Shown here: one piece after another, positions 2,080-18,001 of the stretch
How positions within the stretch are numbered: the stretch's first letter is position 1
Layout of the letters: every line of letters starts with the position of its first letter
Assembly (NCBI RefSeq): GCF_002802985.1
Contig: NZ_NVPT01000041.1
Span: 1 to 33,868, forward strand
Direction of reading: 5' to 3'
Length of the DNA stretch: 33,868 nucleotides
Source of the DNA: Geodermatophilus chilensis
Lineage (GTDB): Bacteria; Actinomycetota; Actinomycetes; Mycobacteriales; Geodermatophilaceae
Notes under the pieces: model-generated
Seen by the model: the letters and a program-made list of their open reading frames with translations, nothing else
What the model was told of the DNA's origin: nothing
Databases searched by the model: none
Made by a program: the position numbers and the translations under genes

Positions 2080-3186
2080 GTGGACGTACTCGGCTCCGGT
2101 CACGAACAGGTCGTCTTCTGCTCCGACCCGGCCTCCGGGCTGCGGGCGGTGATCGCGATCCACTCCACCGCGCTGGGGCCGGCACTCGGTGGCACCCGCT
2201 TCCACCCCTACGCCAGCGAGGACGACGCGGTCGCCGACGCCCTCGCCCTGTCGCGGGCGATGTCCTACAAGAACAGCCTGGCCGGCCTGGACCTCGGCGG
2301 CGGCAAGGCGGTCATCATCGGCGACCCGCACACCGACAAGACCGAGGCGCTGCTGCGTGCCTACGGCCGGTTCGTGGAGTCGCTGGGCGGGCGCTACCTG
2401 ACCGCCTGCGACGTCGGCACCTACAACGCCGACCTCGACGTCGTCGCCCGGGAGACCCGCTTCGCGCACGGCCGGTCCCTGGCCTACGGCGGGTGCGGGG
2501 ACTCCTCGGTGCTCACCGCGTACGGCGTCTTCCAGGGGATGCGGGCCGCCGCCCAGCACCGCTGGGGCAAGCCGTCGCTGGCCGGGCGCACCGTCGGGGT
2601 CGCCGGCGTGGGCAAGGTGGGCAGCTGGCTGGTCGACCGCCTGGTCGAGGACGGCGCCGACGTGGTGGTCACCGACGTCGACGCCGGCGCGGTCGAGCGG
2701 GTGCTGGCCCGCCACCCCGCCGTCGACGCCGTCGCCGACACCGCGACCCTGGTGCGGACGCCGACCGACGTGTACGCCCCCTGCGCGCTGGGCCGGGCGC
2801 TGGACGACGAGACGGTCGCGGTGCTCGAGGCCGAGATCGTCTGCGGCGGGGCCAACAACCAGCTCGCGCGCGAGGGCATCGCCGCCGAGCTCATGCGCCG
2901 CGGGATCCTCTACGCGCCGGACTACCTGGTGAACGCCGGCGGGGTGATCCAGGTCGAGGACGAGCGGCACGGCTTGTCTGGGGTACTGCCCCTGAGCGGC
3001 AAGCCCGGCTTCAGCTTCGAGCGCGCCAAGGAGAAGACGGAACGCATCTTCGACACCACCCTGCGGGTGCTTCAGGTGGCCGAGGAGCAAGGCGTCTCCC
3101 CTGCGGTGGCCGCCGACCGGATGGCCGAGGAGCGGATGGCTGACGTCGGCCGGCTCCGGGTCATCCGACTGTCGCGTGACTGGTGA
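2080..3186 (+). CDS. Glu/Leu/Phe/Val dehydrogenase (valine/leucine dehydrogenase type)
   Basis: This NAD-dependent oxidative deaminase converts branched-chain amino acids to 2-oxo acids in the cytoplasm. The 368-residue product has the N-terminal dimerisation and substrate domain with the two family lysines 12 apart: Lys64 in SYKNSL binds the carboxylate, and Lys76 in GGGKAV is catalytic. The Rossmann motif GVAGVGKVG lies at about 173-181. GANNQLA and the NAGGVIQ segment near the C-terminus are typical. The GTG start at 2080 is supported by the leaderless -10 box. The last 60-70 codons, from about 2970, use more A/T-ending codons (ttg, tct, gta, caa, gct, cga) than the rest. A second, diverged copy of the C-terminal end lies 2.1 kb downstream at 5231-5326. 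The 3' end therefore looks replaced by foreign DNA. Confidence 0.9.
3106..3171 (+). repeat. Left copy of a 66-bp direct repeat (3' end of the dehydrogenase gene)
   Basis: This part of the dehydrogenase coding sequence pairs with 5252-5317 at roughly 80% identity, starting with an identical run of 15 bases (gtggccgccgaccgg). Together the two copies bracket the GAF-ANTAR and HTH genes. Confidence 0.8.
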
Positions 3187-3336
3187 GCGGGCGCCTTGAC
3201 ACAGACGTTCCGCGGACGCTCACGCCGCTCCGCTCGCGGTCGACTTCGACCGGGGAACAGCGTGGTGACGCTGCCCCTCAGGGCCACGTCACAGGACTCG
3301 GATCCACTGGGACAGTTGACCCGAGCGCCATCGCGG

Positions 3337-15734: not shown

Positions 15735-15974
15735 TCAGTCGGTCGGGAGGTGGAGCTCGACGTCCTCGATGACCGGGTTCGCCAGCAGCGTCTCGGCGAT
15801 CTGCTGCAACTCGGCCCGGTCGGGGGTGCCCTCGACCTCGAGGACGAAGTGCTTGCCCTGGCGGACGCTGCGGACGCCGTCGTGGCCGAGCCGGCCCAGC
15901 GCTCCCAGCACCGCCTGACCCTGGGGGTCGGAGATCTCCGGCTTCAGCACGACGTCGACGACCACCCGAGGCAC
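15735..15974 (-). CDS. purS: Phosphoribosylformylglycinamidine synthase subunit PurS
   Basis: PurS (79 aa) is the small bridge protein that holds PurQ and PurL together. The sequence [19 protein letters not shown] followed by [10 protein letters not shown] and [14 protein letters not shown] is diagnostic. The GTG at 15974 was chosen over upstream starts because TACGCT lies exactly 7 bases before it, implying a leaderless transcript that starts the purS-purQ-purL-SCP unit. Between it and purC sits the DUF559 gene with its palindromes, so purS does not depend on the purB-purC transcript. Confidence 0.94.
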
Positions 15975-16081: not shown

Positions 16082-16134
16082 ACATCGGCGATGTGGTCGC
16101 CACAGCAGCCCTTTCGCGACCAGATCGCCGATGT
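16082..16134. repeat. Long palindrome downstream of the DUF559 gene
   Basis: Arms 16082-16100 and 16116-16134 pair at 18 of 19 positions around a 15-base loop. The right arm ends 2 bases from the DUF559 stop codon. Its sequence gcgaccagatcgccgatgt differs at one base from 17109-17127 on the other side of the gene. It could be a terminator, but the relation to the upstream palindrome suggests a repeat unit. Confidence 0.85.
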
Positions 16135-16136
16135 CG

Positions 16137-17018
16137 TCACCGGCCGAGCGCTCTGCGGATCTCGGTGATGACCTCGTGCGGCCGGCCGAGGACGTCGGCG
16201 GAGGTGAACCGCAGGACCGTCCAGCCCGCGGCGATCAGGCGGTTCTGTCGACGGACGTCGTTGACGAAGACGTCCCGCTCGCGGTGCACGTTCCCGTCGA
16301 ACTCCACGATCACCCGCTGTTGCGGCCAGGCGAGGTCTGCTCGCCCGAGGAAGACACCGTCAGCATCCTGGACGACGTACTGCAGCTCCGGTGCAGGCAG
16401 TCCGGACTCGTGGACGAGCCACCGGAGGACCGACTCCATCGGCGACTCGGCCCGAGGATCGGCCACGGGAAGCACCCGCCGCGCGCGTGCGCAGCCACGG
16501 CCGGACGGACGGCGCAGGAACTCCTCCTGCAGCTCCCGGCGACTGGCCAGGCCGTCGAGCAACTGGTCGGAGGCCGCCAGCAATGCGGGAGGCTCGAGGA
16601 CCGCCGCCAGGTCTCGCCACGTGCGCGCCGGCGTCGTCACCGGCATCGACCAGCGCCGGGCGACGTCCTCCTCGGTCAGATCCGAGCGGTAGAGCCGACG
16701 ATCGGTGCGGCTCTCGGCCTGGGACGCCGGCGTGACGGTGACGTGCACCCGCAGGTCGTCCCGGTCTCGCAGGGGAATCTGGACGCCCCACACGTCCGCG
16801 GCGGAGAGGTGACTGAGCACCGCACCCGGTGGGGCGGTCAGCAGTACCGCGGCGAAGCGGCTGGCCAGATCACCGCGCAGCGCACGGGGCAGGTAGGTGT
16901 CCCGGGACAGCCGCACTACCTGCGGGTGTCGCAGCTCGCGGACGGTGAGCCCGGACTCCCGGACGCTCGAGCGGGTGGTGGGGCCGGTGATTCGTGAGCG
17001 GGGCAGTCGTTTCGGCAT
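16137..17018 (-). CDS. DUF559 nuclease-like protein with AbiEi-type N-terminus
   Basis: The 293-residue protein has two parts. Residues about 15-90 resemble the winged-helix AbiEi antitoxin domain ([21 protein letters not shown], then [12 protein letters not shown]). Residues about 190-290 form a DUF559 domain related to Vsr and PD-(D/E)XK endonucleases: a conserved Glu in [10 protein letters not shown], Asp in GRADLAWP, Glu and Asp in VIVEFDG, His in VHRERD, and WTVLRFT near the end. Nuclease activity is inferred from the family; nothing shows the substrate. The gene interrupts the expected purC-purS neighbourhood and is flanked on both sides by related palindromes, as in a small mobile unit. 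A start at ATG 17018 fits the conserved head, but no clear ribosome-binding site is seen. Confidence 0.85.
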
Positions 17019-17077
17019 CCCCGCAGCTTCGCCTGATCTCGGTTCCTCCCCGTCTCTGTCCACAACCTGCGACCAAG

Positions 17078-17124
17078 TCGGCGGTCTGGTCGCCGACCGG
17101 GCTCCTTGGCGACCAGACCGCCGA
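17078..17124. repeat. Long palindrome upstream of the DUF559 gene
   Basis: Arms 17078-17094 and 17108-17124 are perfectly complementary over 17 bases with a 13-base loop. Its right arm region (17109-17127) nearly duplicates 16116-16134, so the DUF559 gene lies between two related palindromes in the same orientation. It is also placed where a purC terminator would be, 17 bases after the purC stop. Confidence 0.85.
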
Positions 17125-17140
17125 TGTGGCTGAGGGAGGG

Positions 17141-18001
17141 TCAGGTGAAGGAGCGGCCGGTCAGGCGCTCGTAGGCGGTCACGTAGCGCTCGCGGGTGGC
17201 CTCGACGACGTCGGCCGGCAGCTCCGGTGGCGGCGAGACCCGGTCCCAGCCGGACGACGTGAGCCAGTCGCGGACGTACTGCTTGTCGTACGAGGGCTGC
17301 ACGCCGCCGGGCGACCAGAGCGTGGCCGGCCAGAAGCGCGAGGAGTCCGGCGTGAGCACCTCGTCGCCGAGGGCTAGCCCGGAGCCGTCGGTGCCGAACT
17401 CGAACTTCGTGTCGGCCAGCACGATCCCGGCGTCGAGCGCGATCTCGGCACCGCGGCGGTACAGCGCCAGCGTCAGCTCGCGCAGGTCCTCGGCCCGCTC
17501 GGCCCCGACCGCGGCGACGACGGCGGCGAAGTCGATCGCCTCGTCGTGCTCGCCCTGCTCGGCCTTGGTGGACGGCGTGAACACCGGCTCGGGCAGCTGC
17601 GAGCCCTCGACCAGGCCGGCCGGCAGCGGGACGTCGCGGATGGAGCCGGTGCGCTGGTACTCGACCGTGCCGGAGCCGGACAGGTAGCCGCGGGCCACGC
17701 ACTCCACCGGCAGCATCTCCAGCCGGCGCACCAGCATCGCCCGGCCGGCGACCTCGTCGGGGACGTCGGTGGCCGAGACCAGGTGGTGGGTCGCCCCGTG
17801 CTCCGCCAGCACCGGCGCGAGCTGGTCGAACCACCACACCGACAGCTGGGTGAGCACCCGGCCCTTGTCGGGGATCGGCGTGGGCAGCACGTGGTCGTAG
17901 GCGGAGATGCGGTCGGAGGCCACGAGCAGCAGCCGGCCCTCGCCGGCGTCGTAGACCTCGCGGACCTTGCCCCGCGCGACCAACGGGAGAGCGAGGGTCA
18001 C
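17141..18001 (-). CDS. purC: Phosphoribosylaminoimidazole-succinocarboxamide synthase (SAICAR synthetase)
   Basis: PurC joins CAIR and aspartate with ATP to make SAICAR. The 286-residue product shows the ATP-site start [49 protein letters not shown] and KFEFGTDG with SRFWPA. It starts at GTG 18001, overlapping the purB stop as GTGA. Length suits the larger single-domain form. It is the last gene of a purB-purC unit, followed by the palindrome at 17078-17124. Confidence 0.95.

Follow-up and report, generated by a model that had tools for sequence, protein, structure and literature searches.

A DUF559 nuclease gene between matching palindromes in Geodermatophilus chilensis, and its likeness to RAYT/REP systems

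In Geodermatophilus chilensis (GCF_002802985.1, contig NZ_NVPT01000041.1), a single gene of the DUF559 family separates purC from purS and, judged by its sequence, lies between two copies of one palindrome. Why does a nuclease gene carry the same palindrome on both sides? The window analysed is the whole stretch of 33,868 nt of this contig. The gene (16137..17018, minus strand, 293 aa) encodes a fusion of an AbiEi-like module and a DUF559/Vsr-like PD-(D/E)XK nuclease. We prefer to read the locus as a palindrome-associated nuclease unit, whose AbiEi-Vsr protein binds, cuts and spreads its own palindrome much as a REP-associated tyrosine transposase (RAYT) does with repetitive extragenic palindromes (REPs), and we give this reading a probability of roughly 0.6.

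The palindromes around the gene

The downstream palindrome (16082..16134, no strand) has 19-bp arms with one mismatch and lies 2 nt from the stop codon. The upstream palindrome (17073..17129, no strand) has perfect 17-bp core arms (17078-17124), and imperfect extended arms reach 17073-17129. The gene-side edge of the upstream core is 59 nt from the start codon. The right arms of the two palindromes (16116-16134 and 17109-17127) are equal at 18 of 19 bases. An earlier note on this DNA had given the palindrome coordinates, the arm identity and the 2-base gap to the stop codon, and all were correct on recheck. Both palindromes are intact around the gene.

The two hairpins scored 16 and 17, and the best of 180 coding windows of 200 nt scored 11. 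The match between the up- and downstream flanks scored 35. Chance palindromes were ruled out by this coding-window null and by the control genes described below. A known structured RNA was rejected as well: Rfam gave two weak microRNA-model matches, far under the gathering scores.

Matching flanks in relatives

Homologs were searched for in 112 genomes of the family, and 111 of them have some homolog at E 1e-10. A clear score gap divides close relatives (set A, 64 loci) from distant paralogs (set B, 26 loci). One further gene, cut by a contig end (G036), was excluded from set A. Set B and the 68 loci taken from the class as a whole (class loci) are picks from longer lists; both flanks were present in 66 of the 68.

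Flank matches exceeded the shuffle maximum of 15 in 61 of the 64 set A loci (all except L087, L095 and L109) and in 21 of the 26 set B loci. Two flanking repeats of the gene's own type, as RAYT/REP systems have them, were thus found in 61/64 loci. The mean flank score was 40.3 within a locus vs 18.1 between loci for set A, and 23.9 vs 12.5 for set B. Among control genes, scores above 20 were seen in 6 of 368, and four of these six (L188, L214, L220 and L222) come from loci known to carry this family's gene.

What the two flanks share in set A is in most cases a palindrome, placed some 50 nt ahead of the start codon and again near the stop codon. The upstream hairpin scored at least 12 in 58 of 64 loci, with 56 of these 58 ending 45–65 nt before the start codon. 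Downstream, 49 of 64 reached this score, and 36 of the 49 start at most 5 nt from the stop codon or overlap it. In set B, such hairpins were found upstream in 12 of 26 loci and downstream in 10 of 26 (8 in position in each case), so the flank match (21/26) was clearer there than the hairpin. Regarding the orientation of the flank pair, 47 of the 82 matched loci fit a direct arrangement better and 31 an inverted one, the rest being ties; as the palindromes are nearly symmetric, orientation is weak evidence.

Comparing the flanks of DUF559 paralogs within the genome, a check proposed in the earlier note, gave a positive result. The genome has nine further DUF559 matches; six of these loci were examined. 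Five have matching flanks with scores of 20–37, each with a different palindrome sequence, and the sixth locus is split. A much more distant DUF559 gene of the same genome (L047, C39) also lies between matching palindromes of another sequence.

Some copies of the family are decayed or interrupted. L045 and L219 are in pieces in different frames, L079 contains an in-frame TAG, and the match of L051 is split over two frames. At L098 (G093; ~3180-3330 in gene orientation), the gene is followed by more strong hairpins, one of which has the palindrome type of the gene itself.

Palindrome type and protein

The palindrome sequence differs between lineages, and the single 19-bp arm, offered earlier as a search key for related genomes, was not supported as a general marker. 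The types were defined once the flanks had been inspected, and further motifs were added to the list between the count of scattered copies and the tree analysis. The protein tree comprised 59 set A proteins; five of the 64 were excluded as short, long, broken or cut. On this tree, palindrome type needs 5 changes, which is the minimum possible, and shuffled labels need 34.8 on average. Genus needs 24 changes and site 11, of which at least nine are forced by well supported branches. Type 3 is nested within type 4, and the support of the type-1 group is only moderate. Transfer of units, palindromes included, from genus to genus and from site to site thus seems to have occurred, although 40 of the 64 loci share the purC-purS site.

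The purC-purS site allowed the two halves of the protein to be separated (38 loci, 703 pairs). Palindrome similarity tracks the N-terminal half, with a partial r of 0.50 given purC (permutation p 0.001) and of 0.435 when the C-terminal half was also held fixed. For the nuclease half, the partial r was -0.04. The tree and these correlations show that the protein and its palindrome type are inherited together and that, at the purC-purS site, the type follows the AbiEi-like half.

One palindrome type per genome was rejected, as paralogs in one genome mostly differ. Their palindrome similarity is mostly at background, in G040 even at 70% protein identity; same-genome pairs scoring above 20 were found in G108, G006 and G059, and one in G040. 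When 210 arms were tested for a small hairpin of their own, 36% were below z -1, meaning that double hairpins in every arm, as in REPINs (paired REPs that form hairpins), are only partly true here.

Scattered copies of the palindromes

Three palindrome types were counted in the 112 genomes by exact hairpin pattern, with gene-adjacent copies subtracted. Reversed-pattern controls gave 0. Genomes with a gene of the same type had on average 7.5 scattered copies vs 0.74 in those without (15 vs 97 genomes). The corresponding means were 2.4 vs 0.39 for the second type (19 vs 93 genomes) and 3.6 vs 0.12 for the third (15 vs 97 genomes). The differences persist within 68 genomes of four genera (p 1e-6, 2e-5 and 4e-10). 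All 44 genomes outside genera g1, g2, g3 and g11 had zero copies of the three counted types.

In the genome of G. chilensis itself, the arm pattern (up to 3 mismatches) had 38 matches vs 1 for the reversed pattern, many of the 38 being single arms rather than hairpins. Eleven full hairpins conform to an exact pattern for type 4, a related type; neither palindrome of the window conforms to this pattern.

According to a crude gene caller, 60 of 68 scattered loci are intergenic (31 tandem, 24 convergent and 5 divergent), and the median distance to the nearest stop codon is 15 nt in the 55 loci facing one. In two of the 68, a gene of set A type is no more than 1.5 kb away. The type of the scattered copies matched that of the resident gene, apart from the exceptions given below and a subtype mismatch in the own genome. 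Read from these patterns, solo copies of the gene's type are scattered mostly intergenically, and genomes whose own gene is of that type have more of them.

Four sets of near-identical copies were compared, and only the clean one was used as evidence of movement. It consists of three identical palindromes of 77–78 nt in G237 (L334-L336), whose flanks are unrelated (20–47% identity); no target-site duplication was seen beside them by eye. The set L337-L339 of G228 sits within longer duplicated DNA, the pair L342 and L343 of G007 shares a 99-nt block extending well past the palindrome on one side, and the comparison of L340 and L341 in G228 yielded no identical centre. In the L337-L339 set, the duplicated DNA exceeds 600 nt and was found close to either end of a 7.7-Mb contig; a further, inverted occurrence spans at least 123 nt of it. 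It is perhaps a chromosome-end duplication.

For 20 G237 copies, information falls immediately outside the searched pattern, with C-rich sequence beyond. For 11 own-genome copies, the fall comes only about 4 bases beyond the pattern (within the pattern itself, information is high by construction). A scan of 90 loci for extra strong hairpins found five intergenic hairpins and no clean insertion pair.

The position of these palindromes would also suit an operator and a terminator. An AbiEi-type autorepressor would then act at the upstream palindrome as its operator, the same sequence downstream would serve as a terminator, and the scattered copies would be terminators or regulon sites; the nuclease would do something else. 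AbiEi represses its own operon via paired inverted repeats, as described in parts of PMC3985639, and the fixed place of the upstream hairpin before the start codon (56 of 58 loci), the intergenic setting of 60 of 68 scattered loci and their short distance to stop codons fit as well. However, this leaves three observations unexplained: the up-/downstream match in each lineage, the identical copies at unrelated sites in G237 and the tracking of the resident gene by the scattered copies. Divergent spacers, where operators are expected, hold just 5 of the 60 intergenic copies. We regard operator and terminator as an unlikely explanation.

Alternatively, the palindromes could be a host repeat family into which the gene merely inserts. 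Insertion sequences that target REPs are known (parts of PMC1525189), scattered copies outnumber genes, and some genomes keep copies without a gene. Nevertheless, palindrome type follows the protein tree and the N-terminal half, not the genome, and the 44 genomes outside the named genera have none of the three counted types. A host repeat of this kind seems very improbable to us.

Occurrence across Actinomycetes

The group profile matches 141 of 196 Actinomycetes genomes at E 1e-20. A flank match above the 99th percentile of mismatched pairs was found in 36 of 66 class loci, and both hairpins scored at least 12 in 23. For family f19, a prediction written beforehand held in four of five genomes on each of two patterns (weakly in G264 and G208). 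Of the eight f19 genomes expected to have few or no copies, seven were as predicted. G237 has 91 copies of one exact pattern. Unpredicted copy counts were found in G175, G208 and G218 on one pattern and in G147 and G162 on the other, the genes of these genomes having been partly examined; one G208 copy adjoins a listed gene match. The family is rare on plasmids and phages: a search of 72,556 plasmid records found it in one (E 1e-15), and 50,697 phage records gave no match (E 1e-8).

The protein and related systems

The AbiEi-like DNA-binding module of the window protein (P0001) covers residues ~15-170 and the nuclease residues ~190-293. In the domain search, the protein matches DUF559 and MTES_1575 only. 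The PADLOC AbiEi profile matches P0001 and all 18 alignment members; Pfam AbiEi_1 matches 8 of the 18 and not P0001. E195, D228, E239, H245 and D254, as in the Vsr/EDxHD fold, are among the residues invariant in 18 diverse members. A RAYT acting in trans was rejected, as the Y1 HUH transposase domain PF01797 had 0 matches in the own genome.

Parts of PMC2817692 and PMC8049555 describe RAYT genes with flanking palindromes and scattered extragenic REPs. The system here is alike in that two palindromes enclose a single chromosomal gene, often with one at its stop codon, that extragenic copies are scattered, and that the family is rare on plasmids and phages. RAYT and REP types co-evolve. The differences are the enzyme (a PD-(D/E)XK nuclease with an AbiEi module instead of a Y1 HUH transposase), the longer palindromes (~47–78 nt), the orientation of the pair, which is not fixed, and the lineage, which is Actinomycetes. 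A GTAG head beside the palindrome was not seen in the end consensi of the 11 own and 20 G237 copies (two types profiled). In kind, this is a REP-associated gene that is not a RAYT: the unit works like RAYT/REPIN systems with an unrelated enzyme.

The N-terminal module is related by profile to AbiEi, the antitoxin in type IV toxin-antitoxin systems of the AbiE kind. The DNA bound by AbiEi is a pair of 23-bp inverted repeats lying 3 bp apart (parts of PMC3985639), a geometry close to that of the palindromes here. In contrast to AbiEi, the module is fused to a nuclease, and palindromes are present on both sides of the gene and scattered. An AbiEii nucleotidyltransferase toxin gene is not next to the gene in the window, where the neighbours are purC and purS. 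The homing endonuclease I-Bth0305I and the repair endonuclease Vsr have a different DNA-binding module, and the intact flanking palindromes set the present gene apart from both. VsrA of Caulobacter shares the DUF559 nuclease domain; the parts of PMC12907096 consulted deal with it as a repair enzyme resembling Vsr and linked to a methyltransferase, and do not mention flanking palindromes. No report of DUF559 genes with palindromes was found in the open-licence PMC literature (subscription papers and preprints were outside the scope), and word look-up in the REP surveys PMC3733652 and PMC12306157 found no DUF or nuclease partner.

The AbiEi-like half is likely to bind the palindrome, because the two co-vary and AbiEi is known to bind 23-bp inverted repeats; from the RAYT parallel, we infer that the nuclease spreads the palindromes. 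One protein would bind each arm through its AbiEi-like half, and two arm-bound proteins would bring two Vsr-like nuclease domains to the palindrome. A cut or nick at the palindrome ends could then allow the palindrome to be copied, with low frequency, into other intergenic sites, as RAYTs do with REPINs. The gene would have the two flanking copies as ends of its own, and the upstream copy is probably an operator as well.

The earlier note had likened the locus to a RAYT unit built on a DUF559 protein, and this likeness is well supported. Its suggestion of a defence role was favoured by none of the tests. A self-mobilising element was not supported for the gene; the solo palindromes are the clearer mobile unit.

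Several points weigh against a nuclease that spreads its palindrome. No movement of a palindrome has been observed and no activity of the protein is known, and we know of no Vsr-fold nuclease acting as a transposase. Four or more scattered copies occur without a gene of that type in G015, G016, G017, G025, G050, G056 and G109 (type 1), G007 and G018 (type 2) and G062 (type 4). In the own genome, the scattered repeats are mostly of the CTCGTGGC subtype, and the flanking pair is of the CTGGTCGC subtype. G228 broke the f19 prediction with 44 and 53 copies where few or none were expected. Arms form their own small hairpins in some types only. Moreover, the p-values are optimistic, as related genomes are not independent, and the type labels were chosen with the flanks in view.

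A DnaA-box-like site upstream of the gene

Between the upstream palindrome and the gene lies a DnaA-box-like 9-mer (17056..17064, plus strand), CTGTCCACA, with one mismatch to TTGTCCACA. The motif CTGTGGA was found within 90 nt upstream of the start codon in 60/64 set A, 20/26 set B and 23/68 class loci. The form TGTGGAC starts 45–51 nt before the start codon in set A (56 loci), between palindrome and gene, and had this position in 1 of 342 control genes. A 9-mer with at most one mismatch to TTATCCACA or TTGTCCACA, both listed as high-affinity DnaA boxes (Table 1 of PMC4285127), was present in 42/64 set A, 15/26 set B and 30/68 class loci (19 exact). Control genes had it in 3/342 and 2/151 cases. 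Near solo palindromes without the gene, such a site was found in 0 of 66.

DnaA may bind at this box, and, more tentatively, the site could tie expression or activity to chromosome replication. To our knowledge, domesticated genes that maintain palindrome populations in bacterial genomes have been described only for HUH transposases (RAYTs). In our estimate, the odds are about even that a second, independently evolved palindrome-spreading system exists in actinobacteria, in which AbiEi-Vsr nucleases propagate cognate palindromes, with specificity set by the AbiEi module and a link to replication via the DnaA box. If so, the arrangement evolved twice, with an unrelated nuclease doing a RAYT-like job. 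A function would be suggested for a very common family of unknown role, and the repeat families in these genomes would be explained. DNA recognition by AbiEi modules could also be studied on a large, naturally occurring collection of protein-DNA pairs.

The purC-purS site

The upstream neighbour is purC (SAICAR synthetase; 17141..18001, minus strand; Pfam SAICAR_synt, E 3.6e-72) and the downstream neighbour is purS (15735..15971, minus strand; Pfam PurS, E 1.4e-24), which confirms the position between these two genes that had been noted before. This is the commonest site of the family, with purC-gene-purS in 40 of 64 set A loci (purC confirmed in 39 of the 40). The earlier note had considered that this order might be ancestral and conserved with unrelated flanks. 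The order is indeed the commonest, but the flanks match in nearly every locus and the gene tree departs from genus.

Thirty genomes were searched at purC-purS, of which 16 had no purC in reach and are uninformative. G057 lacks the gene at purC-purS and has a single palindrome there, of the same subtype as the window's. The spacers of G021, G052 and G111 (L221, L238 and L232) are short, contain neither palindrome nor gene and are candidate clean empty sites. No strong hairpin was found in the purC-purS spacers of G002 and G107.

A homing-like drive would be conceivable at such a site: the nuclease cuts a lone palindrome in a gene-less allele, and repair copies the gene in between two palindromes. 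However, with an intact palindrome on either side of the gene, such a nuclease would probably cut its own unit, and copies at unrelated sites are left unexplained. These patterns could also arise by ordinary recombination in purine genes, which are conserved, or by deletion of the DNA between the two palindromes. We consider homing quite unlikely and stay with the RAYT-like spreading of palindromes.

Longer purC-purS spacers, carrying lone palindromes of other types, were found in G056 and G058, and a decayed gene is present at purC-purS in G009.
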